Source of the DNA: Streptomyces sp. SID8374
GTDB taxonomy: Bacteria; Actinomycetota; Actinomycetes; Streptomycetales; Streptomycetaceae
Reading direction: 5' to 3'
Assembly: GCF_009865135.1 (NCBI RefSeq)
Contig: NZ_WWGH01000001.1
Coordinates: 1,488,001 to 1,552,000, forward strand
Length of the DNA: 64,000 bases
Below, one piece after another: positions 3,085 to 14,162 of this stretch. Positions within the stretch are counted from its first letter, which is position 1. Each line of letters starts with the position of its first letter. Made by a program: the position numbers and the translations under genes. The notes below the pieces were generated by a model. The model worked only from the letters and a program-made list of their open reading frames with translations, did not search any database and was not told the DNA's origin.

Positions 3085-4209
3085 ATGGACACGGCCGTCG
3101 GCAAGGAACGGGCCAGGGGTGCGCTGCTGGGTCTCGCGGTCGGGGACGCGCTCGGAGCACCGGCGGAGAATCTGCGGCCCTCGGAGATCCGCCGCCGCTG
3201 GGGCCGGATCGAAGGGTTCGTGAGCGAGGACCCGGCGGGCACCGACGACACGGAGTACGCGATCTTCTCCGGGCTGCTGCTGGCCCGGCACGGCTCCGCG
3301 CTCACCGTCTCCCAAGTGGAGCGGGCCTGGCACCACTGGATCGCCGATCTGGACGAGGGGCCGTTCCGGGGCGCCGGGTTCAGCGAGCGCGGCACCCTGG
3401 AGAACCTGCGCCGGGGCCTCGCCGCACCGATCTCGGCCCAGCACCGGCACGCCTGGAGCGACGGCCTCGCGATGCGCGCGGCCCCCTTCGGGGTGTTCGC
3501 GGCGGGGCGCCCCGCCGAGGCGGCCCGGCTGGTGGCGGTGGACGGCCGGGTCAGCCACGAGGGCGAGGGGATCTACGGGGGCCAGGCGGTGGCGGCCGGG
3601 GTGGCGGCGGCCATGGTCGGCGCGGGCCTCGCCTCGGTGATCGCGGCGGCGCTGTCGGTGGTCCCGATGGACTCCTGGACGGCCCGCTCGCTGCGCCGCG
3701 CGGTGGCGGCGGCCCAGCGCCCGTACCCGGACCGGCTCACGATGGAGCGGGCGGTGCGCTCGGCGGTGGTGATCGGCGGCTACCCGTGGACAGACCTGGC
3801 ACCGGAGGCGGTGGGCCTGGCGTTCGGGGCGTTCACGGCGGCGCGGGGCGACTTCCGTACGGCGGTGCTGACGGCCGTGAACATGGGCCGCGACGCGGAT
3901 ACGACGGCGGCGGTGGCGGGGTCCCTGGCCGGGGCGCTGCACGGGGCGGGCGCGATCCCGCCGGAGTGGGCGGCGGCGATCGGCCCGGTGCGGGGCAGCT
4001 GCCTGCCCTCGATGCGGGGGTACCACGTGCTGGACATCGCGGACCTGCTGACACCGGAGGGCACGGAGGCGGTGGAAAGTGCGGAGGCGGTGGAGGGCGC
4101 GGAGGCGGTGGAGAGCGCGGGCCGGGGCGGTGGGCGGGAGCCTTCCGCCGTACGGGACATGGCGTCGGTGGCCGCTTCCTTCGAGCCCGTACGGGAGGAG
4201 CGGCGATGA
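3085..4209 (+). CDS. ADP-ribosylglycohydrolase family protein, paralogue 1
   Basis: A 374-residue member of the ADP-ribosylglycohydrolase/DraG fold, which hydrolyses N- or O-glycosidic bonds of (ADP-)ribose using two Mg2+ ions. The metal-binding signatures appear complete: GLAVGDALG near residue 20, GTDDTE near 54, and NMGRDADTT near 270 followed by AGSLAGALHGAGAIPPEW. ATG 3085 follows GGAGG at 3072-3076, so the longer upstream frame is not needed. The C-terminus has a short Glu/Val/Ala repeat (EAVESAEAVEGAEAVES) encoded by an ~18-bp tandem repeat. It is the first gene of a coupled operon and its stop overlaps the next ATG. The physiological substrate is unknown. Confidence 0.85.
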   Translation: MDTAVGKERARGALLGLAVGDALGAPAENLRPSEIRRRWGRIEGFVSEDPAGTDDTEYAIFSGLLLARHGSALTVSQVERAWHHWIADLDEGPFRGAGFSERGTLENLRRGLAAPISAQHRHAWSDGLAMRAAPFGVFAAGRPAEAARLVAVDGRVSHEGEGIYGGQAVAAGVAAAMVGAGLASVIAAALSVVPMDSWTARSLRRAVAAAQRPYPDRLTMERAVRSAVVIGGYPWTDLAPEAVGLAFGAFTAARGDFRTAVLTAVNMGRDADTTAAVAGSLAGALHGAGAIPPEWAAAIGPVRGSCLPSMRGYHVLDIADLLTPEGTEAVESAEAVEGAEAVESAGRGGGREPSAVRDMASVAASFEPVREERR

Positions 4210-5474
4210 CGACGACGGAGCTGCCCGCCACCACCGGGACCGCCGCCGCCAAAGACGCCGCCCCCTCCCGGCGCGCCCGGATCGAGGGCCTCCTCCTCGG
4301 CCTCGCCTCCGGGGACGCCGCCGGGTGGCCCGCCGCGCGGCACCGGGCGGCCCGGATGCCCGAGTGGACCCGGCGGCTCACCCGGGAGCTGGACACCTTC
4401 GCCGAGCAGAACGCCACGACCACGCTCCCCGTCCCCATCGCCCTCAACCAGCCGCCCGAGCCCCTGCGGCTCGGCCCGTCCGACGACGCCGAGTGGGCCG
4501 CGTTCGCCGGGCGTACGGTGCTGGCGGCGGCCGACGACGCGGACGGCCTCTCCCCGGGCCGCCGGATGCGGGACGCGGTGGACCGGGCCTGGAACGCGCT
4601 CGCCGCCACCGTCGCCGCCGCCAGTGCCCGGGCCCCCGAGGTGGAGGCGGCGGTGCTCCCGCTGCGGGCCCGGATCTCGGTACGGGCCGGGCTCGGCAAC
4701 CTGGCCGCCGGGCTGCGGCCGCCCGCCACCGGGCACGACAACCCGCACTACTTCGACGACGCCGCCTGCGTACGGGCCGCCGTCCTCGCCGTCGTCCACC
4801 CGGGCGACCCCGAGGAGGCGGCGGCGCTCGCGGAGTTCGACGCCCGCTACACCCAGGACGGCGACGGGGTGCACGGGGCGCGGGCCATGGCCGCCGCGAT
4901 CGCCGTGGCGCTGGCCGGGGCGGACGTCGACACCGTGGTGAACGCCGCCCTCGCCCAGCTCCCCGAGGGCACCGAGATCGCCCGCAACGCCGCGCACGCG
5001 GTCCGCCTCGCCCGGGAGTTCGCCGACGAGCCCGCCGGGGCGTTCGCCCTGGTCCCGGTCCTGGAACACCAGATCGTGGACCACGTCTACAGCTACGGGA
5101 TCGCCGCCGCCGAGACCGTACCCGTCGCCCTGGCCCTCACCACCGCCGCCCGGGGCGAGATCGCCCAGGCGCTCCCGGCCGCCGCCTGCCTCTCCCGGGT
5201 CGCGGACTCCGCGCCCGCCCTGGCCGGGGCGCTGACCGGGGCGATCGGCTCGGTCGCCGCCGTACCGGCGGGCTGGCGCGAGGCGTGCCGGACGCTCGCC
5301 GGATGTGCGCTGCCCCGGCTCGCGGGCCTGGACCTGATCGAACTCGCCGGGCTGCTGGCAGCCACGGAACCGGCCGCCCCGGGTGGACAATTCCGACATG
5401 ACGCCCACAACGGCCACGGCAGCCGAGCCCGTCCCCGCCCCCTCGACACCGCACTCCCCTCCCGGCCTCGATGA
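4206..5474 (+). CDS. ADP-ribosylglycohydrolase-like protein, paralogue 2 (probably impaired active site)
   Basis: A 422-residue homologue of its neighbours, joined to paralogue 1 by an ATGA overlap. It keeps GLASGDAAG (about 32-40) and SDDAEW (about 92-97), but the C-terminal metal motif RDAD-T is changed to RVADSAP (about 331-337), so one expected Asp ligand is Val. The following AGALTGAIGSVAAVPAGW still aligns with the family. The last ~26 residues lie in the region that also encodes the start of the next gene, in another frame, and look non-conserved. It may be a catalytically weak subunit or partner of the complete paralogues; that is inference. Confidence 0.7.
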   Translation: MTTTELPATTGTAAAKDAAPSRRARIEGLLLGLASGDAAGWPAARHRAARMPEWTRRLTRELDTFAEQNATTTLPVPIALNQPPEPLRLGPSDDAEWAAFAGRTVLAAADDADGLSPGRRMRDAVDRAWNALAATVAAASARAPEVEAAVLPLRARISVRAGLGNLAAGLRPPATGHDNPHYFDDAACVRAAVLAVVHPGDPEEAAALAEFDARYTQDGDGVHGARAMAAAIAVALAGADVDTVVNAALAQLPEGTEIARNAAHAVRLAREFADEPAGAFALVPVLEHQIVDHVYSYGIAAAETVPVALALTTAARGEIAQALPAAACLSRVADSAPALAGALTGAIGSVAAVPAGWREACRTLAGCALPRLAGLDLIELAGLLAATEPAAPGGQFRHDAHNGHGSRARPRPLDTALPSRPR

Positions 5475-6594
5475 CCGCATCACCCGGGCCCTCGTCGGCG
5501 CGGCCGTCGGGGACGCCCTCGGCGGCCCGGTCGAGGGCTGGACACCCGAGCAGATCGCCGAGCGCCACGGCGGCCGGGTGACCGGGATCGTCGGCCCCTG
5601 GCACGGCGAGAACTGGCGTACCGCCCGCCCCATCGCCCCGTACCACAAGGGCGACGGGCACGTCACCGACGACACCCTGATGACCCACGCCCTGGTCCGG
5701 GTCTACGACCGGGTCCGCGGCCACCTCGACGCGTACGCCGTCGCCGACCACCTCGTACCGGACCTCCTCTCCCCCCGCTGGATCCCCGAGCTGGAGGCCG
5801 AGGCGCTGCCGCTCCAGCGGATCTTCCTGGCGGAGAAGTGGCTCGTGGCCCGGCTGCACTACGGGCACGTCGACCCGCGCGAGGCCGGTGCGGGCAACAT
5901 CGTCAACTGCGGGGCCGCGATGTACATGGCCCCGGTCGGGCTGGTCAACGCGGGCCATCCGGAGGCCGCGTACGCCGAGGCGCTGGAGGTGGCCGCGCCC
6001 CACCAGTCCTCGTACGGGCGGGAGGCCGCCGGGGTCTTCGCAGCCGCTGTCGCCGCCGCCTGCCGCCCGGGCGCGACGCCGGACACGGTGGTCGACGCCG
6101 CACTCACCCTGGCCAAGGACGGCACCCGGTCCGCGATCGAGGCCGTCTGCGAAGTGGCCGCGCGCCACGACGACTTCGAGGCCGCGCTCGCCCCGCTGCG
6201 GGCGGCAGTTGAACCGTTCGACACCGTCGGCCCCGACTACCGCTCCCCCTCGCTCGGCGCCCGCCGCCCATCCCGGCTGCACGCCATCGAGGAACTGCCC
6301 GTCGCGCTGGGCATGTTGCTGGTCGGAGGCGGCGACTACCGGCGTACGGTGCTCGGTTCGGTCAACTACGGGCGGGACTGCGACTCCATCGCCACGATGA
6401 GCGGCGCGATCGCGGGCGCGCTGGGCGGTGAGGTGCCGGCCGACTGGGCGGAGACTGTGGCGGAGGCGAGCCGGCTGGACCTGGAGGCCCCGGCCCGGAC
6501 CCTGGCGCAGGTGGCCCGGGAGGTCTTCGCCCGGGACGTGGAGCGCCGCCGGTCCCACGAGGAGGCGTTCGCGGCGCTGGCCGGTACGCGGTGA
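5398..6594 (+). CDS. ADP-ribosylglycohydrolase family protein, paralogue 3
   Basis: A 398-residue protein with complete motifs: GAAVGDALGGPVEGW near the N-terminus, VTDDTLMTHAL about 60 residues on, and NYGRDCDSIATMSGAIAGALGG near residue 320, so both Asp pairs expected to bind Mg2+ are present. ATG 5398 has GGGTGGA just upstream; GTG 5383 is an alternative start. Either way it overlaps the 3' end of paralogue 2 out of frame by roughly 80-90 bases. It overlaps paralogue 4 by four bases. This is the least degenerate of the set and the likeliest active hydrolase together with paralogue 1. Confidence 0.85.
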   Translation: MTPTTATAAEPVPAPSTPHSPPGLDDRITRALVGAAVGDALGGPVEGWTPEQIAERHGGRVTGIVGPWHGENWRTARPIAPYHKGDGHVTDDTLMTHALVRVYDRVRGHLDAYAVADHLVPDLLSPRWIPELEAEALPLQRIFLAEKWLVARLHYGHVDPREAGAGNIVNCGAAMYMAPVGLVNAGHPEAAYAEALEVAAPHQSSYGREAAGVFAAAVAAACRPGATPDTVVDAALTLAKDGTRSAIEAVCEVAARHDDFEAALAPLRAAVEPFDTVGPDYRSPSLGARRPSRLHAIEELPVALGMLLVGGGDYRRTVLGSVNYGRDCDSIATMSGAIAGALGGEVPADWAETVAEASRLDLEAPARTLAQVAREVFARDVERRRSHEEAFAALAGTR

Positions 6595-8351
6595 GCGTCC
6601 ACCCGCCCGAGGCTCAGCCCGGACACCCCTACGCACAGCCCGACGCCCCGCACGTCCAACCGCCCCAGGACCCCCACCTCCGCCTCACCTGGGTGCAGCC
6701 CGAGGACCTGGTCGGGCACGAGCTTCGGCAGGCCGCGCAGGACGGGCGGGACGCCCGGGCGATCGAGGAGCGGTGGTACGCGGCCGGGGGCTCCCCCGCC
6801 CCGGACCGCGCGGGCGCCTCCGAGCCCCCCGCACCGCCGCGCCTGCGCGCACTGGCCGGGCAGCTCCTCGACGAACTCGCCCTGCTGGAGTCCCCGTTGG
6901 CCGCCGACGAGCCCACCGAGCTGGCGGACATCATGGCCGCCTGCCCCCACTGGCCCGGCCCGCCCGAGGCCCCGCCCGCCGACGGGAACCGTACGCACGT
7001 CACCGGCCAGACCGGGCTGCCGGTCACCGGCCAGGACCGTACGCCCCTCACCGACCAGAACGGGCTGCCGGTCACTGGCCCGGGCCGGGCGCCCGTCACC
7101 GGCCAGGACGCACCGCCCGTCGCCGACCGGGGCGGGCTGCCGGCCACCGGCCAGCACCGTACGCCCCTCACCGACCAGGCCCTCGGTCTGCCTGTCACCG
7201 GCCAGGGCCGTACACCAGTCACCGACCAGAACGGGCTGCCCGTCACCCGCCCAGGCCCGACACCCACCGCCCGCCGGGAATCGACACCCACCATCACCCC
7301 CGCCCGGCTGCACGCCGCCTGGCTCGGGCGGGCGGCGGGCTGTCTGCTCGGGAAGCCGGTGGAGAAGCTGCCCCTTCACGGCATCCGCGCCCTCGCCCGC
7401 GCCACCGGCAACTGGCCCCTCACCACCTGGTTCACCGGGCGCGGCGTCCCCCCGGAACTCCTCGCCGCACACCCCTGGAACCGCCGCTCGGCCCCCACCT
7501 CGCTCGCCGAGAACATCGACGGCATGCCCGAGGACGACGACCTCAACTACCCGCTTCTCACCCTGCTGTTGCTCCAGCGGCACGGGCGCTCCTTCACCAC
7601 CGCCGACCTGGCCCGGCTCTGGCTGGACGAACTCCCGGCGGGCCGCACCTTCACCGCCGAGCGGATCGCGTACGGCAATCTTCTCGCGGGCGTCGAACCC
7701 CCGTGGACCGCCCGCTACCGCAACCCGTACCGCGAGTGGATCGGTGCCCAGATCCGGGCCGACGTCCACGGCTGGACCCACCCCGGCGACCCGGCCGGAG
7801 CCGCCGCCCAGGCCCATCGCGACGCGGTCCTGACCCACACCGCCAACGGGGTCTACGGCGCGATGTTCACGGCGGCCGCGCTCGCGGTGGCGGCGGGCGG
7901 CGAGAGCGAAGTGCACGGCTGCCTGGCCGCCGGGCTGCGGGTCGTGCCGCCGCACTCGCGGTACGCGCGGGCGGTCCGGCTCGGCATCGAAACGGCGCGT
8001 ACGGAAGGGGATTTCGACACCGTGGTGGACCGGCTGCACGCCGCGTATGCCGACACCCACCACTGGGTACACGTGCTGCCCAACGCCGCGCTGCTCGCCG
8101 CCGCCCTCACCCACGCCGACGGCGACTTCACCCGGTCCATCGGCCTCGCGGTCTCCGGCGGCTGGGACACCGACTCCAACGGGGCCACCGCCGGTTCGCT
8201 CGCCGGGCTGCTGGCGGGTGCCCCGGACGCCCTGCCCGACCACTGGACGGCCCCCCTGAAGAACCGCCTCGCCACCTCCGTACCCGGCTACGACCGGACC
8301 GGTTTCGACACCCTCGCCGCACTGACCCACCAGGAGGCTCTGCGCCCATGA
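6591..8351 (+). CDS. ADP-ribosylglycohydrolase family protein, paralogue 4, with repeat-containing N-terminal extension
   Basis: A 586-residue protein starting at the GTG that overlaps the previous stop. Residues ~1-135 contain a charged region, with WVQPEDLVGHELRQA near residue 33. Residues ~136-225 are imperfect repeats of GLPVTGQDRTPLTDQN. The hydrolase domain starts near residue 240 with LGRAAGCLLGKPVEKL, followed by EDDDLNYPLL and GGWDTDSNGATAGSLAGLL, so the acidic metal motifs are kept in variant form (GCLLG for GDALG). The repeat segment is probably a flexible linker. The gene is coupled to the ribokinase gene by an ATGA overlap. The role of the N-terminal part is unknown. Confidence 0.8.
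   Translation: MSVHPPEAQPGHPYAQPDAPHVQPPQDPHLRLTWVQPEDLVGHELRQAAQDGRDARAIEERWYAAGGSPAPDRAGASEPPAPPRLRALAGQLLDELALLESPLAADEPTELADIMAACPHWPGPPEAPPADGNRTHVTGQTGLPVTGQDRTPLTDQNGLPVTGPGRAPVTGQDAPPVADRGGLPATGQHRTPLTDQALGLPVTGQGRTPVTDQNGLPVTRPGPTPTARRESTPTITPARLHAAWLGRAAGCLLGKPVEKLPLHGIRALARATGNWPLTTWFTGRGVPPELLAAHPWNRRSAPTSLAENIDGMPEDDDLNYPLLTLLLLQRHGRSFTTADLARLWLDELPAGRTFTAERIAYGNLLAGVEPPWTARYRNPYREWIGAQIRADVHGWTHPGDPAGAAAQAHRDAVLTHTANGVYGAMFTAAALAVAAGGESEVHGCLAAGLRVVPPHSRYARAVRLGIETARTEGDFDTVVDRLHAAYADTHHWVHVLPNAALLAAALTHADGDFTRSIGLAVSGGWDTDSNGATAGSLAGLLAGAPDALPDHWTAPLKNRLATSVPGYDRTGFDTLAALTHQEALRP
7014..7257 (+). repeat. In-frame ~48-bp tandem repeat in paralogue 4
   Basis: Copies of a G(G/T)CTGCC-initiated unit begin near 7014, 7062, 7134, 7185 and 7233. 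Intervals are 48 or close to multiples of 24. They encode GLPVTGQ, (D/G)RTP(L/V) and TDQN blocks of 16 residues. The copies are similar but not identical, so this is an ageing minisatellite kept in frame inside a linker. Confidence 0.75.
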
Positions 8352-9232
8352 CCCGAATCGCGGTGCTCGGCAGCACCAACATGGACCTCGTCGCCTACAC
8401 CGCCCGCGCCCCCGAGCGCGGGGAAACCGTCACCGGCCGGGAGTTCCGGACGGTCCCCGGCGGCAAGGGCGCCAACCAGGCGGTCGCCGCCGCCCGCGCG
8501 GGCGGGGAGGTGACGATGATCGGCGCGGTCGGCGACGACGCGTACGGCGCCCAGCTCCGCGACGGCCTCGAACACGCCGGGGTCGACACGGACTTGCTCC
8601 ACACCGCCGAGGGACCGAGCGGCACCGCGCACATCGTGGTGGACGACTCCGGGTCCAACGCGATCGTGGTGATCCCCGGCGCCAACGGCGTCGTCACCGC
8701 GCTCGGCCCCGGCGAGATCGCGGCGATCGCCGCCGCCGACCTGCTGCTGATGCAGCTCGAACTCCCGCTCTCCGCCGTCGTGGAGGGCGCCCGCGCGGCC
8801 AGGTCCCAGGGCGTACGGACCATCCTCACCCCCTCCCCCGTACAGCCGCTGCCCGATGAACTCCTGGACCACATCGACCTGTTGGTCCCCAACGAGCACG
8901 AGGCCGCCGAACTCTCCGGGCAGGCCGAACCGCACGCGGCCGCGCAGATCCTGTTGCGGCAGGTGCCCGAGGTGATCATCACGCTCGGTGCGCGGGGCAG
9001 TCTGTACGCGGCCCGGGGCGGCGAGCCGGTGCTGTTCGAGGCCCCCGAGGTGCGGGCCGTCGACACGACCGGGGCCGGGGACACCTTCGTCGGGGCGCTG
9101 GCGGTGGCGCTCGGTGAGGGGAGGCCGGTGGCCAAGGCGCTGGCCTTCGCCTCCTCGGCCGCCGCGCTCTGCGTCCAGAAACCGGGCGCGTCCACGTCCA
9201 TGCCGTACCGGAGCGAGATCGAGGCAGCATGA
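8348..9232 (+). CDS. Ribokinase / PfkB-family sugar kinase
   Basis: A 294-residue PfkB-fold kinase, most like ribokinase (ATP + D-ribose to ribose 5-phosphate). It begins MTRIAVLGSTNMDLV. It has the substrate-side signature GGKGANQAVAAARAGG near residue 37 and the catalytic and anion-hole signature DTTGAGDTFVGALAVAL near 240, with the Asp of GAGD as base. It overlaps the hydrolase before it and the CoA-transferase after it by four bases each. In this operon it could phosphorylate ribose released by the glycohydrolases. Another pentose or nucleoside cannot be excluded from sequence. Confidence 0.85.
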   Translation: MTRIAVLGSTNMDLVAYTARAPERGETVTGREFRTVPGGKGANQAVAAARAGGEVTMIGAVGDDAYGAQLRDGLEHAGVDTDLLHTAEGPSGTAHIVVDDSGSNAIVVIPGANGVVTALGPGEIAAIAAADLLLMQLELPLSAVVEGARAARSQGVRTILTPSPVQPLPDELLDHIDLLVPNEHEAAELSGQAEPHAAAQILLRQVPEVIITLGARGSLYAARGGEPVLFEAPEVRAVDTTGAGDTFVGALAVALGEGRPVAKALAFASSAAALCVQKPGASTSMPYRSEIEAA

Positions 9233-10428
9233 GTACGACATCCGCAGGGCCCCTGGCCGGGCTGAAGGTCATCGACCTCGCCACCCTCTTCGCCGGACCG
9301 CTCGCGGCCACCATGCTCGGGGACTTCGGCGCCGATGTGATCAAGGTGGAGCACCCCCGTAAGCCGGACCCCTCGCGCGGGCACGGGCCCGCCAAGGACG
9401 GGGTCGGCCTGTGGTGGAAGCTGCTCGGCCGCAACAAGCGCACCCTGACGCTGGACCTGTCCGCCCCGGGTGGCCGGGACGTGCTGCTCCAGCTGGCCGC
9501 CGAGACCGACGTGATCGTGGAGAACTTCCGGCCCGGGACCCTGGAGCGGTGGGGGCTCGGACCGGACGAGCTGCACGCCGTCAACCCGCGCCTGGTGCTG
9601 GCCCGGGTCACCGGCTTCGGGCAGTTCGGCCCGTACGCGCACCGGCCCGGGTTCGGCACGCTGGCCGAGGCGATGAGCGGGTTCGCGGCGATCACCGGGG
9701 AGCCGGACGGGCCGCCGACACTGCCGCCGTTCGGGCTGGCGGACTCCATCGCGGCGCTGGCGACGGCGTACGCGGTGATGGCCGCGCTCGCCGGGCGCGA
9801 GAAGACGGGCGAGGGGCAGGTGGTGGACCTGGCGATCATCGAACCGATCCTCACCGTGCTGGGACCGCAGCCGCTCTGGTACGACCAGCTCGGCTACGTC
9901 CAGCCGCGCACCGGCAACCGCTCCCGCAACAACGCCCCGCGCAACACCTACCGCACCGCCGACGGCCACTGGGTCGCGGTCTCCACCTCCGCCCAGTCGG
10001 TGGCCGAGCGGGTGATGCGGCTGGTGGGCCGCCCCGAGCTGATCGAGGAGCCGTGGTTCGGGTCGGGCACCACCCGGGCCGAGCACACCGAGGAGCTGGA
10101 CGGGGCGGTCGGCCACTGGATCTCCCGCCACAGCCGCGAGGAGGTGCTGAACGGCTTCGAGAAGGCGGAGGCGGCCGTGGCGCCGATCCATGACGTACGG
10201 GAGGTGATGGAGGACCCGCAGTACCGGGCGCTGGGCACGATCGCCGAGGTCGACGACCCGGAGCTGGGGCCGCTGCGGATGCAGAACGTCCTCTTCCGGC
10301 TCTCGCAGACCCCGGGCGCCATCCGCTGGGCGGGCCGCCCGCCCGGCGCGGACACCGAGGAGATCCTCGCCGGACTCGGCCTCTCGGAGAACCGCATCGC
10401 GGCGCTGCACGACCAGGGGGCGCTGTGA
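9229..10428 (+). CDS. Family III CoA-transferase (CaiB/BaiF/Frc family)
   Basis: A 399-residue member of the formyl-CoA-transferase/CaiB family, which swaps CoA between a CoA-thioester and a free carboxylic acid via an aspartyl-CoA anhydride. Seen are the N-terminal GLKVIDLATLFAGP and GADVIKVE segments, KRTLTLDLS, VENFRPGTLERWG, and FGLADS, whose Asp (about 172) aligns with the catalytic Asp of Frc, followed by REKTGEGQVVDLA. It sits between ribokinase and the CitE-like gene in the coupled operon. Pairing a CoA-transferase with a CitE-like lyase suggests activation then cleavage of a small hydroxy- or branched dicarboxylic acid. The acid is unknown. Confidence 0.85.
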   Translation: MSTTSAGPLAGLKVIDLATLFAGPLAATMLGDFGADVIKVEHPRKPDPSRGHGPAKDGVGLWWKLLGRNKRTLTLDLSAPGGRDVLLQLAAETDVIVENFRPGTLERWGLGPDELHAVNPRLVLARVTGFGQFGPYAHRPGFGTLAEAMSGFAAITGEPDGPPTLPPFGLADSIAALATAYAVMAALAGREKTGEGQVVDLAIIEPILTVLGPQPLWYDQLGYVQPRTGNRSRNNAPRNTYRTADGHWVAVSTSAQSVAERVMRLVGRPELIEEPWFGSGTTRAEHTEELDGAVGHWISRHSREEVLNGFEKAEAAVAPIHDVREVMEDPQYRALGTIAEVDDPELGPLRMQNVLFRLSQTPGAIRWAGRPPGADTEEILAGLGLSENRIAALHDQGAL

Positions 10429-11291
10429 CCGGCCGCCCGATCCCGGGCCCGCCGGCCCCGGAGGGCCCTCCTCCGCCGCTCGGCCGACCCCCGCTGACCT
10501 GGCTGTACGTCCCCGGGGACCGGCCGGAGGTGGTGGCCAAGGCGCTCGGCTGCGGGGCGGACGTGGTCATCGTCGACCTGGAGGACGCGGTCGCCCCCGA
10601 CCGCAAGGAGTACGCGCGCGCCGCCACCGCCGAACTCCTCGCCGACCCGGTGACGGCCGCTCCCGACGCCGTACCGGTCCATGTCCGGGTGCACGGCGAG
10701 GACGACATCCGGGCGCTGATGGCGCTGCCGGGCCTCGCCGGTCTCCGGCTGCCGAAGATCACGCACGCGGTCTCCGTGCACCATGTGGCGGCGGTCGCCC
10801 CCGGCGTACCGCTCTATCCGCTGCTGGAGTCGGCGCTCGCCATGGAGCACGCGTACTCGATCGCCTCGGCCGATCCCGCCGTCCGGGGCATCGCGCTGGG
10901 CGAGGCGGATCTGCGCGCGGATCTCGGCGTACGGGACGACAGCGGGCTGGACTGGTCGCGCAGCCGGCTCGTGGTGGCGGCCCGGGCGGCCGCGCTGCCG
11001 CCGCCCGCGCAGTCGGTCTTCCCGGACGTGCGGGACCTGGACGGGCTGTGGGCCTCGTGCGTACGGGGGCGGGGGCTCGGGCTGCTGGGCCGGGCGGCGA
11101 TCCATCCGCGTCAGCTGGAGGTGATCGAGAGGGCGTTCCGGCCGTCGGCCCGGGAGATCGAGGAGGCGGAGGAGATCGTCGCGGCGTCGGCGGTGGAGGC
11201 GGGGGCGCTGGCGCTGCCGGACGGGCGGTTCGTGGACGCGGCGGTGGTCGCGGCGGCGCGCCGCACACTGGCGATCGCCGGGCGGTCCTGA
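10425..11291 (+). CDS. CitE-like lyase (HpcH/HpaI aldolase / citrate lyase beta superfamily)
   Basis: A 288-residue protein of the CitE/malyl-CoA lyase type, which cleaves or forms 3-hydroxyacyl-CoA thioesters with Mg2+. Features are RPPLTWLYVPGDRPE (start of the barrel), DVVIVDLEDAVAPD, LRLPKITHA, the metal-ligand Glu in PLLESALAME, the Asp in LGEADLRADLG, and AIHPRQLEVIE near the C-terminus. Its GTG overlaps the CoA-transferase stop. It lacks the alpha and gamma citrate-lyase subunits nearby, so it is a stand-alone CitE-like enzyme using free CoA esters. It is the last gene of the operon, with an inverted repeat over its stop codon. Confidence 0.8.
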   Translation: MTGRPIPGPPAPEGPPPPLGRPPLTWLYVPGDRPEVVAKALGCGADVVIVDLEDAVAPDRKEYARAATAELLADPVTAAPDAVPVHVRVHGEDDIRALMALPGLAGLRLPKITHAVSVHHVAAVAPGVPLYPLLESALAMEHAYSIASADPAVRGIALGEADLRADLGVRDDSGLDWSRSRLVVAARAAALPPPAQSVFPDVRDLDGLWASCVRGRGLGLLGRAAIHPRQLEVIERAFRPSAREIEEAEEIVAASAVEAGALALPDGRFVDAAVVAAARRTLAIAGRS

Positions 11292-11317
11292 GGTTTCCCA
11301 GGTCCGCCCGGCGATCG
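11272..11317. terminator. Stem-loop between convergent citE-like gene and lgt
   Basis: CGATCGCCGGGCGG at 11272-11285 is perfectly complementary to 11304-11317, with an 18-base loop holding the stop codon of the CitE-like gene. lgt ends at 11339 on the other strand, so it is placed to end both transcripts. There is no U-run, as is common in Streptomyces. Confidence 0.6.
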
Positions 11318-11338
11318 GGGGCAGTGCGACGCGCGAGG

Positions 11339-12298
11339 TCAGCTCTTGTCGGCGGCCTCGGGGGCGGGGTCCCCGGCCGGGGCCTCGGTCTCCGCCGGGT
11401 CCGTGTCCTTCTTCAGCAGGTCGCCGGAGGCCTCGGGGGCGTCCGCGTCCTTGGCCTCGTCCTTCTTCGCGGCGGCCTCCGCCTCGCGGTCCGGCTCCAC
11501 GATCTCCTCGCGGCCCGGGCGGAGCTTCGCGGAGAGCACGATGTAGGTGACGGCGAGGACGAAGACGACGATCGCGGTCCACACGTTCAGGCGCAGGCCG
11601 AGGACGTGGTGGGCCTCGTCGACCCGCATGTACTCGATCCAGCCGCGTCCGGCGCAGTAGGCGGCGACGTACAGCGCGAACGCCCGTCCGTGGCCGAGCC
11701 GGAAGCGGCGGTCGGCCCAGATGACCAGCAGCGCGACGCCGATGCACCACAGCGACTCGTAGAGGAAGGTCGGGTGGTACGTCCCGGCGAGCCGGTTCGG
11801 GCCCTCGCTGATCTCCAGCGCCCAGGGGAGGTCGGTCGGCTTGCCGTACAGCTCCTGGTTGAACCAGTTGCCCCAGCGGCCGATGGCCTGGGCGATGGCG
11901 ATACCGGGGGCCAGCGCGTCCGCCCAGGCGGGCAGCGGGATGCCCCGGCGGCGGCAGCCGATCCACGCGCCGACCGCGCCGAGGGCGATGGCGCCCCAGA
12001 TGCCGAGGCCGCCCTCCCAGATCTTGAAGGCGTCGACCCAGTTCTGGCCGTCGCTGAAGTAGAGCTGGTAGTCGGTGATCACGTGGTAGAGCCGGCCGCC
12101 GACGAGGCCGAAGGGCACGGCCCAGACGGCGATGTCGGCGACGGTGCCGGCTTTGCCGCCACGGGCGACCCAGCGCTTGTTGCCGATCCAGACGGCGACG
12201 AAGACACCGATGATGATGCAGAACGCGTAGCCGCGGAGCGGGATCGGGCCGAGCTCGATCACGCCGGTCGACGGGCTGGGAATGGAGGCAAGATTCAT
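11339..12298 (-). CDS. lgt: Prolipoprotein diacylglyceryl transferase
   Basis: A 319-residue polytopic membrane enzyme that transfers diacylglycerol from phosphatidylglycerol to the lipobox Cys of prolipoproteins. About seven hydrophobic segments are visible. It carries the Lgt signature GRWGNWFNQELYG near residue 140 with the invariant Asn/Glu, plus WEGGLGIWGAI and YHPTFLYES. The C-terminal ~55 residues are a charged Glu/Ala/Asp/Lys tail typical of actinobacterial versions. The lipoprotein signal peptidase lspA is elsewhere in the window (56294-56884). The DsbA-like gene ends about 120 bases upstream. Confidence 0.95.
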   Translation of the reverse strand: MNLASIPSPSTGVIELGPIPLRGYAFCIIIGVFVAVWIGNKRWVARGGKAGTVADIAVWAVPFGLVGGRLYHVITDYQLYFSDGQNWVDAFKIWEGGLGIWGAIALGAVGAWIGCRRRGIPLPAWADALAPGIAIAQAIGRWGNWFNQELYGKPTDLPWALEISEGPNRLAGTYHPTFLYESLWCIGVALLVIWADRRFRLGHGRAFALYVAAYCAGRGWIEYMRVDEAHHVLGLRLNVWTAIVVFVLAVTYIVLSAKLRPGREEIVEPDREAEAAAKKDEAKDADAPEASGDLLKKDTDPAETEAPAGDPAPEAADKS

Positions 12299-12316
12299 GA
12301 CGGGGTCGACGCTACC

Positions 12317-12351
12317 TTGCCGGGCGGTGGGTACGGCAAGCCACCCGGCAA
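12317..12351. terminator. Stem-loop upstream of lgt, downstream of the DsbA-like gene
   Basis: TTGCCG..GGTGG pairs with CCACC/CGGCAA across a 10-base loop, with a small bulge. A second short GC hairpin lies nearer the DsbA-like stop at about 12391-12405. Either could end the DsbA-like transcript before lgt. Confidence 0.4.
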
Positions 12352-12419
12352 CGTCTGGATAACGAGGGCCCTGTCATGGACCCGTGTGCCCGCCCCCTTG
12401 CGGGGCCCCGCCCGGTCCC

Positions 12420-13247
12420 TCAGGAAGCGGGCGCGGACGGGGTGGCGGTGCCGGGCTTCTTGCCCTTGTTGGCCTCGGCGACCCACTTCTTCAGGTTCTC
12501 CACGGAGATCTGCTCGTCGCCCTTCTTCGGGAAGATCGACTCGCCGTTGAGGAGGGCGGTCGGGGTGCCCTGGAAGCCGCCCTCGCGGAACGCGGTGTCG
12601 GACTTCTGGACCCAGCTGTCGTGCTCGCCGCTCTCCACACACGTGCGGAAGCCCGGTGTGTCGAGGCCTTCGACCTCACCGGCCAACTCGATCAGCCGGC
12701 TGTTCTTGGCGAAGGCGTCGTCGGGCTCGGGGGGCTGGTTGCGGAAGAGCACGTCGTGGTACGGGGCGAACTTGCCGACGTCCTGGGCGCAGGCGGCGGC
12801 GTTGGCGGCGCGCAGCGAGCCCTTGCCGCCGAGGTTGCCGTCGATGATCGTGGCCAGGTGGTAGTCCACCTTGAGCCGGCCCGCCTCGACCAGCTCCGTG
12901 ATGGTGTCCCGGAAGGCGTTCTCGAACTGGGCGCAGACCGGGCAGCGGAAGTCCTCCCAGATCGTGAGCGTGGACGGGGCGTCGGATGCGCCGACCGGGA
13001 GGGTCAGGGAGTCCTCGCCGGTCGCCCCCGACGGGGTGATGGCGGGGCCGGAGGCGCTGTCGCTGCCGCCGTCCTTGCCCACGTTGGCCGCGATCAGGCC
13101 GACCACGGCGGCCAGCGCCAGGACGCCGACCACGGCGGAGGAGACGATCAGCGTACGGCGGCGCTTCTCGCGGCCCTTTTCCCGCTCGCGCTGCTGGGCC
13201 AGGCGCTCACGCGCACTTCGGTTTCCCTCAGGAATCTTGTCGCTCAC
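12420..13247 (-). CDS. Membrane-anchored DsbA-like thioredoxin-fold protein
   Basis: A 275-residue protein with a basic cytoplasmic N-terminus rich in Arg/Glu/Lys, one membrane segment (about residues 34-55, TLIVSSAVVGVLALAAVVGLI) and an extracellular thioredoxin-fold domain. The active site is CPVC in FRCPVCAQF, and a cis-Pro motif GTPTALLNG lies near the C-terminus. It probably forms or isomerises disulfides in exported proteins. GTG 13247 (MSDKIPEGN) is chosen over longer in-frame starts because the extra residues overlap the trp terminator. A second protein of the same design is at 48552-49367. Which partner reoxidises it is not evident here. Confidence 0.85.
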   Translation of the reverse strand: MSDKIPEGNRSARERLAQQREREKGREKRRRTLIVSSAVVGVLALAAVVGLIAANVGKDGGSDSASGPAITPSGATGEDSLTLPVGASDAPSTLTIWEDFRCPVCAQFENAFRDTITELVEAGRLKVDYHLATIIDGNLGGKGSLRAANAAACAQDVGKFAPYHDVLFRNQPPEPDDAFAKNSRLIELAGEVEGLDTPGFRTCVESGEHDSWVQKSDTAFREGGFQGTPTALLNGESIFPKKGDEQISVENLKKWVAEANKGKKPGTATPSAPAS

Positions 13248-13261
13248 ACCCGCAGCAACGA

Positions 13262-13291
13262 ACCGGGGAGGCACGTACGCGCCTCCCCGGT
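13262..13291. terminator. Terminator hairpin after trpA
   Basis: ACCGGGGAGGC at 13262-13272 is perfectly complementary to 13281-13291 with an 8-base loop. It lies 58 bases beyond the trpA stop and just before the DsbA-like start, so it should end the trpCMBA transcript. Confidence 0.65.
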
Positions 13292-13349
13292 CCATATTCC
13301 ACCCATTCAGGTGACTTCGAGGGTCACCGCTTTCGAACGCGCCGGACTG

Positions 13350-14162
13350 TCAGCGCTTTCGGACGCCCTGGGCCAGCTCCCCCGCCAGCGAGCGGACGGC
13401 GTCGAGACCGGCGGCCTCGTCGGGGGCGTCCAGGATCGCCTTGACGAAGGCCGAGCCGACGATGACGCCATCGGCGAACCCGGCGACCTCGGCGGCCTGC
13501 TCGGCGTTGGAGACCCCGAGGCCGACGCAGACCGGCAGGTCGGTGGTGGCGCGGGTGCGGCCCACCAGCTCCTGGGCCTGGGCGCCGACCGAGGCGCGGG
13601 TGCCGGTGACGCCCATCAGGGAGGCGGCGTAGACGAAGCCGCTGCCCGCCGCCGTGATGGTGGCGAGACGGGCGTCCTGACTGCTGGGGGCGACGACGAA
13701 CACGGTGGCGAGACCGTGCTTCTCGGCGTGCTCGCGCCACAGCGCCGACTCCTGGACCGGCAGGTCGGGCAGGATGCACCCGGCGCCGCCCGCCTCGGCC
13801 AGCTCGGCGGTGAAGCGCTCCACGCCGTAGCGGTCGATGGGGTTCCAGTACGTCATGACCAGGATCGGGACCCCGGTGGCCTCGTACGCTTCGCGGACCG
13901 TACGCATCACGTCGGCGATCTTGACCCCGCCGCGCAGGGCGATGTCGTCGGCGGTCTGGATGACCGGTCCGTCGAGGACCGGGTCGCTGTGCGGGAGCCC
14001 GACCTCCACGATGTCGGCGCCGCCCGCGACGACGGCCTTGACCGCCTCGATGCCGCCGTCGACGGTCGGGAAGCCGGCCGGGAGGTAGGCGATGAGCGCG
14101 GCCCGGTCCTCCGCCCTGGCGGCGGCGAGGGTGGTGCTCAACAGCTGGATGTTGCCGCTCAC
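13350..14162 (-). CDS. trpA: Tryptophan synthase alpha subunit
   Basis: A 270-residue TIM-barrel enzyme that splits indole-3-glycerol phosphate to indole and glyceraldehyde 3-phosphate and passes indole to TrpB. The catalytic Glu is in [17 protein letters not shown] near residue 50, with the catalytic Asp in the same segment; phosphate-binding Gly-rich loops GVTGTRASV and VGSAFVKAI are near the C-terminus. The GTG start overlaps the trpB stop by four bases, ensuring coupled production of the alpha2beta2 complex. It is the last gene of the trp unit. Confidence 0.97.

Follow-up and report, generated by a model that had tools for sequence, protein, structure and literature searches.

A conserved operon with four ADP-ribosylglycohydrolase-fold genes in Streptomyces sp. 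SID8374 and its possible role in riboside breakdown

Background

The stretch of DNA analysed here (the window) comprises 64,000 nucleotides of contig NZ_WWGH01000001.1 of Streptomyces sp. SID8374, whose assembly is coded G000 in this paper. Positions 3085-11291 of the window hold seven co-directional genes, called as open reading frames (ORFs) on the + strand, which encode four ADP-ribosylglycohydrolase-fold proteins (A1 to A4), a ribokinase (RbsK), a family III coenzyme A (CoA)-transferase (CoAT) and a CitE-like CoA-ester lyase. We propose, with a probability of roughly one half, that these genes form the enzymatic half of an operon, conserved among actinobacteria, for the uptake and breakdown of ribosides, in which the acid part of the substrate is converted to acetyl-CoA. 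That the seven genes belong to an operon is well supported, and the riboside-plus-acid chemistry is plausible from the protein families involved. In the proposed scheme, a small riboside would be taken up by an ATP-binding cassette (ABC) importer, which in the relatives is encoded together with a LacI regulator; A1, A3 and A4 would cleave off the ribose, which RbsK would phosphorylate to ribose-5-phosphate; and CoAT would convert the hydroxy-dicarboxylic-acid part to a CoA ester, which the CitE-like lyase would split into acetyl-CoA and a 2-oxoacid. One molecule would thereby feed both the ribose and the acid branches, and the "ADP-ribosyl hydrolases" of this operon likely have a nutritional role rather than one in protein signalling. 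If so, there would be a common environmental riboside that even actinobacteria of small genome size (1.3 and 1.8 Mb) take up. A description of this gene set was not found in the open-licence papers that were searched.

Gene organization and conservation in Streptomyces

All seven proteins score above the cut-off of their Pfam family (e.g. 26.2 bits for PF03747 and 23.3 bits for PF02515). The DraG-like A1 (3085-4209) carries both metal motifs, matches PF03747 with 209 bits and finds the DraG structure 2woe with an E-value of 9e-18. It is followed by A2 (4206-5474; PF03747, 113 bits), where the second metal motif is without its first Asp, by A3 (5398-6594, or from an alternative GTG start at 5383; 177 bits), in which the metal motifs are present, and by A4 (6591-8351; 162 bits over residues 242-550), which has an N-terminal extension and a repetitive linker. 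RbsK (8348-9232), an optional member of the cluster, matches PfkB with 242 bits, CoAT (9229-10428) matches PF02515 (CoA_transf_3) with 410.8 bits, and the CitE-like lyase (10425-11291) matches PF03328 (HpcH_HpaI) with 85 bits. Five of the six junctions are four-base ATGA/GTGA overlaps, and the remaining one, A2/A3, is an overlap of 77 bases, or of 92 bases if A3 starts at GTG 5383. The ORFs, the Pfam matches and the junctions agree with a preliminary description of the window, which had reported a coupled seven-gene set of these families. Its mention of four paralogous hydrolases holds insofar as all four match PF03747, with the caveat that the metal site of A2 is broken.

A scan of public genomes with A3 confirmed at least 550 relatives, the best 80 loci of which were analysed; all of these are titled Streptomyces except one, [Kitasatospora] papulosa. 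Of the 80 loci, 68 carry the six-gene core A1-A2-A3-A4-CoAT-CitE in unchanged order, the remaining 12 lying on short contigs, and 49 of the 68 complete loci have the ribokinase between A4 and CoAT. Four-base coupling is kept at CoAT/CitE in 68/68, at A4/RbsK in 49/49 and at RbsK/CoAT in 47/49 loci, and less often at A1/A2 (57/68), A3/A4 (52/68) and A2/A3 (7/68); where RbsK is missing, A4 is directly coupled to CoAT by four bases in 15 of the 19 loci. The coupling of the junctions exceeds chance. In each of the seven genes, synonymous codon differences are more numerous than non-synonymous ones, in a count over up to 40 of the 80 loci that is not a formal dN/dS estimate.

Linkage to an importer and a regulator in other genera

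Among 394 genomes of the class, A3 orthologs were found in 62, representing 15 of the 137 sampled genera, and the linked gene set is present in loci from all 14 non-Streptomyces genera with A3. The preliminary description had named a lack of linkage outside one species as grounds for rejecting its reading, and this did not hold, fourteen genera besides Streptomyces having orthologous clusters. A draw of 396 genomes from the whole phylum gave A3 in 10 genomes, Streptomyces only.

At all 18 testable non-Streptomyces loci, genes for a LacI regulator, two permeases and a solute-binding protein lie upstream of the enzymes, the importer families being SBP_bac_1 and, for the two permeases, BPD_transp_1. 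Carbohydrate importers usually consist of an SBP_bac_1 protein and a pair of BPD_transp_1 permeases controlled by LacI, which is why the importer of the relatives is predicted to carry a sugar-like compound. The relatives share with LacI-controlled carbohydrate ABC operons the LacI regulator, the two permeases and the binding protein, followed by enzymes and a sugar kinase, but their hydrolases are of the ADP-ribosylglycohydrolase fold rather than classical glycosidases, and the window has neither importer nor regulator. Sets of the E. coli yegTUV type comprise an ADP-ribosylglycohydrolase-fold protein, a PfkB kinase and a transporter. The operon resembles them in this partnership of hydrolase, sugar kinase and importer, and differs from them in the number of hydrolases (four rather than one), in the type of transporter (an ABC importer rather than a single permease) and in the extra CoAT/CitE acid branch. 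The complete operons of relatives (locus L158 and Streptomyces genome G014) make the riboside-uptake reading directly testable.

In eight of 20 fetched loci of relatives, the operon also encodes an alpha-amylase-like barrel fused to a formylglycine-generating-enzyme (FGE)-like domain (L157, positions 4736-6724; also L152, L155, L156, L159, L160, L161 and L163), which is an undescribed protein architecture; a structure model with a predicted local distance difference test score (pLDDT) of 74.5 was used for the fold only. An ortholog of this fusion was not found in G000, where the sole match covers 48 residues of the FGE domain at 1.7e-4.

The ribose branch

The cluster kinase scores above the cut-off of the ribokinase equivalog (TIGR02152, 318.2 bits against 299.65), and its best PDB matches are ribokinases. 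For a comparison of kinase content, eight class-sample genomes in which the gap between A3 and CoAT is too short for a kinase were taken together with G014 and set against nine genomes with the cluster ribokinase. Each of the nine genomes that lack the cluster ribokinase has another ribokinase-family match elsewhere, with 283-304 bits (above the cut-off in one case), while among the nine with it, five have a second and four have this one alone; the difference between 9/9 and 5/9 is small. An ordinary ribokinase thus seems able to stand in for the cluster kinase, as would be expected if the product of the hydrolases were ribose.

These observations bear on an alternative in which the importer would carry an oligosaccharide or a furanoside of a different sugar (e.g. 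apiose or arabinose), and the product would be something other than ribose. The general make-up of the importer allows it, the barrel protein of the eight relatives points to an oligosaccharide, and the ribokinase of the cluster is dispensable; the equivalog score and the PDB matches of the kinase, and the further ribokinase-family protein in each of the nine genomes without it, speak for ribose instead, and we regard this alternative as unlikely.

The acid branch

A CoAT ortholog (at least 56% identity) is present in all 62 genomes of the class sample with A3, no more than 15 kb from A3 in 58 cases, and in 31 of the 332 genomes without A3 (33 when two partial matches, in G062 and G100, are included); as the genomes are related, a p-value overstates the significance of this association. 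Twenty CoAT loci were inspected from genomes without an A3 match, of which one, L227, is the same operon at a contig end, and a CitE-like gene lies in the stretch in 13 of the other 19. Rough open-frame calls, several of them on the wrong strand, were relied on solely where a family search backed them. Ten hand-picked neighbours from six of these CoAT loci comprised three MmgE/PrpD proteins, two Peripla_BP_6 binding proteins, two PF04199 cyclases, one major facilitator superfamily protein, one acyl-CoA dehydrogenase and one protein without a family; the MmgE/PrpD and Peripla_BP_6 neighbours fit acid breakdown. At L210, L214 and L225, CoAT orthologs lie near MmgE/PrpD in genomes without an A3 match, possibly as part of a separate acid pathway.

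Itaconate and citramalate are broken down by a CoA-transferase, a hydratase and a RipC/Ccl lyase. The operon likewise has a CoA-transferase beside a CitE-like lyase, for which RipC_Ccl is the best-matching curated family; the operon differs in that CoAT and the lyase score below the specific-family cut-offs and in that no hydratase or dehydratase is found among its genes. Without either enzyme, the pathway would presumably have to start from an acid that is itself of the citramalate, malate or 3-hydroxy-3-methylglutarate type. The missing hydratase, together with RipC/Ccl as the nearest curated lyase family, makes a citramalate-type acid our first guess.

It could also be that two pathways share one operon, i.e. 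a riboside branch (A1-A4 and RbsK) and an unrelated acid branch (CoAT and the lyase). The CoAT orthologs in the 31 genomes without an A3 match, in places near MmgE/PrpD, would fit such a division, although at least one of them, in G382, is the same operon at a contig end; so would three of the 20 fetched relatives, in which the hydrolase cluster has no CoAT in the stretch, although CoAT sits on another contig of the same genome. Against it stand the CoAT ortholog in every A3 genome, with 58 of 62 linked, and the retention of the CoAT/lyase pair at L163 and L164, both of them small-genome loci, and we consider this division improbable.

The hydrolases and their S. coelicolor counterparts

Both metal motifs are present in A1 and A3, and the second motif of A1 is intact in 68/68 Streptomyces rows and 16/16 far rows. 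In A4, Glu replaces Thr in the first motif; its N-terminal extension is conserved, and a PDB sequence search with A4 gave no relative. In A2, none of the 93 readable orthologs has the first Asp of this second motif, while the fold is retained (structure model with pLDDT 67, used for the fold only), and A2 and A1 are present or absent together. Judged from these sequences, A2 is likely a non-catalytic or atypical partner of A1. The operon proteins share the fold family of DraG, ARH1 and ARH3 (PF03747), and A1 and A3 keep the metal motifs as these do, as does A4 apart from the Glu in its first motif, but they fall below the curated equivalog scores. A1 reaches 77 bits against the DraG cut-off of 337 and 51.5 bits against the Tri1 cut-off of 490, A3 reaches 41 and 32.5 bits, respectively, and A2 and A4 gave no match to either model. 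A2 further differs by its lost metal Asp, and the relatives' enzymes sit behind an ABC importer and a LacI regulator.

In S. coelicolor, SCO2038 is trpX within trpCXBA, according to the available part of PMC5036795. If this species has no cluster ribokinase, counting back from SCO2038 over trpB, trpA, a DsbA-like gene, lgt, CitE and CoAT leads to SCO2031 as A4, and by gene order SCO2028-SCO2031 would be A1-A4, so that SCO2028 would be A1 and SCO2030 would be A3. SCO2028-SCO2030 are listed among uncharacterised DraG/ARH homologues in the text seen of PMC5087735, as are SCO2028-SCO2031 in that of PMC9411070, which counts eight such homologues for S. coelicolor; by the above mapping, four of the eight would fall in this operon. 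In the accessible portion of PMC13036486, purified SCO2028 and SCO2030 are reported to have no detectable activity on U-alpha-ADPr.

That the hydrolases reverse the ADP-ribosylation of proteins or nucleic acids, with the kinase and CoA genes recycling the products or being unrelated, is suggested by PF03747 in all four, by the DraG-like A1 with both metal motifs and by the grouping of SCO2028-SCO2031 with DraG/ARH homologues (PMC5087735 and PMC9411070, as far as available), but the importer and LacI genes upstream in 18/18 testable relatives, the score of A1 far under the DraG cut-off and the inactivity of SCO2028 and SCO2030, albeit on one substrate only (PMC13036486, in part), make this rather improbable. 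The preliminary description had envisaged the breakdown of a ribosylated or ADP-ribosylated compound that carries an acid. The ribosylated compound with an acid part is now the best-supported reading, whereas ADP-ribose on the substrate is not supported so far, given the importer and LacI regulator ahead of the relatives' enzymes and the U-alpha-ADPr result for SCO2028 and SCO2030 (PMC13036486, same portion). These two proteins have been assayed as erasers of ADP-ribosylation (PMC13036486, likewise in part); if the riboside reading is true, that search would be looking in the wrong place.

More tentatively, and rather doubtfully, the operon might represent a dedicated, undescribed actinobacterial pathway for a hitherto unrecognised class of natural ribosides of branched hydroxy-dicarboxylic acids, in which a heteromeric hydrolase of catalytic A1 and metal-site-broken A2 would perform one of the cleavages, and SCO2028-SCO2031 and their kin would be nutrient ribosidases without a role in ADP-ribosylation.

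Several further observations concern these proteins. About ten 24-base tandem units lie in the linker of A4 (window positions 6988-7251), and 18-base tandem units lie in the region of the 3' end of A1 (4056-4120). In G319 (L166, positions 9505-10303), A3 is reduced to its first part and A4 to its last part, and these two remnants adjoin in an otherwise complete Streptomyces operon. Another PF03747 match, with an internal stop codon, lies on contig C2 of G000 (positions 148230-148730; L008). A connection with RK9NH, a 2'-O-methyluridine hydrolase, was considered and dropped, as this enzyme is related to RihA, RihB and RihC (PMC6278475, in the part available).

Points against the proposed pathway

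Several findings weigh against a riboside uptake-and-breakdown operon with an acid branch. CoAT and the lyase fall below the cut-offs of every specific curated family: all seven listed family III models, including succinate--glutarate CoA-transferase, were missed by CoAT (best 245 bits against 750), and the lyase missed its nearest family, RipC_Ccl (NF038242), with 141.2 bits against 375. Nineteen of the 68 complete Streptomyces loci lack the ribokinase, which was also not found in six of the 20 fetched relatives (among these six, L151 ends early), and in the three relatives mentioned above the lyase, like CoAT, is not nearby. In the strain of the window itself, importer and regulator are not linked to the enzymes, whose neighbours are VIT1 and lgt; importer homologs lie on another contig, C2 (L172, positions 7494-11927), and the best of the 22 LacI-family matches of G000 are paralogs of 40-42% identity, so that G000 has, judging by identity, no clear ortholog of the cluster regulator. 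Finally, among 37 Streptomyces genomes, 20 have both importer and A3, seven A3 only, six the importer only and four neither; the lack of co-variation within Streptomyces counts against an obligate partnership and against a simple story of a moved importer.

Neighbouring genes and operon history

In the window the operon lies between a VIT1 family gene (2056-2898, - strand; PF01988) and lgt (11339-12298, - strand; PF01790), conserved neighbours outside the operon, both of which flank 64 of the 68 complete Streptomyces loci. In G014, the genes for the LacI regulator, two permeases and the solute-binding protein form one block with A1-A2-A3-A4-CoAT-CitE, in this order and without a ribokinase, and in G023 the importer alone lies between VIT1 and lgt (L207, positions 7508-13676), i.e. 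at the site of the operon in the window. The simplest history would be an ancestral complete operon at the VIT1/lgt site, parts of which were later lost or moved. The importer homologs of G000 share 64% and 58% (permeases) and 49% (binding protein) identity with the proteins of the relatives, the next-best binding protein sharing 26%. In a loose scan that includes chance matches, LacI-type palindromes were found upstream of regulators (e.g. at L157, L161 and L202), and none was found upstream of A1 in the window.

At L154, a YhgA-like transposase-family gene (PF04754; positions 4771-5763) lies on the opposite strand between CitE and CoAT. In G000, the importer genes on contig C2 are followed by a gene for a macrolide-inactivating glycosyltransferase (NF033129, 762 bits against a cut-off of 700), and the same pairing was seen at L205 and L206.

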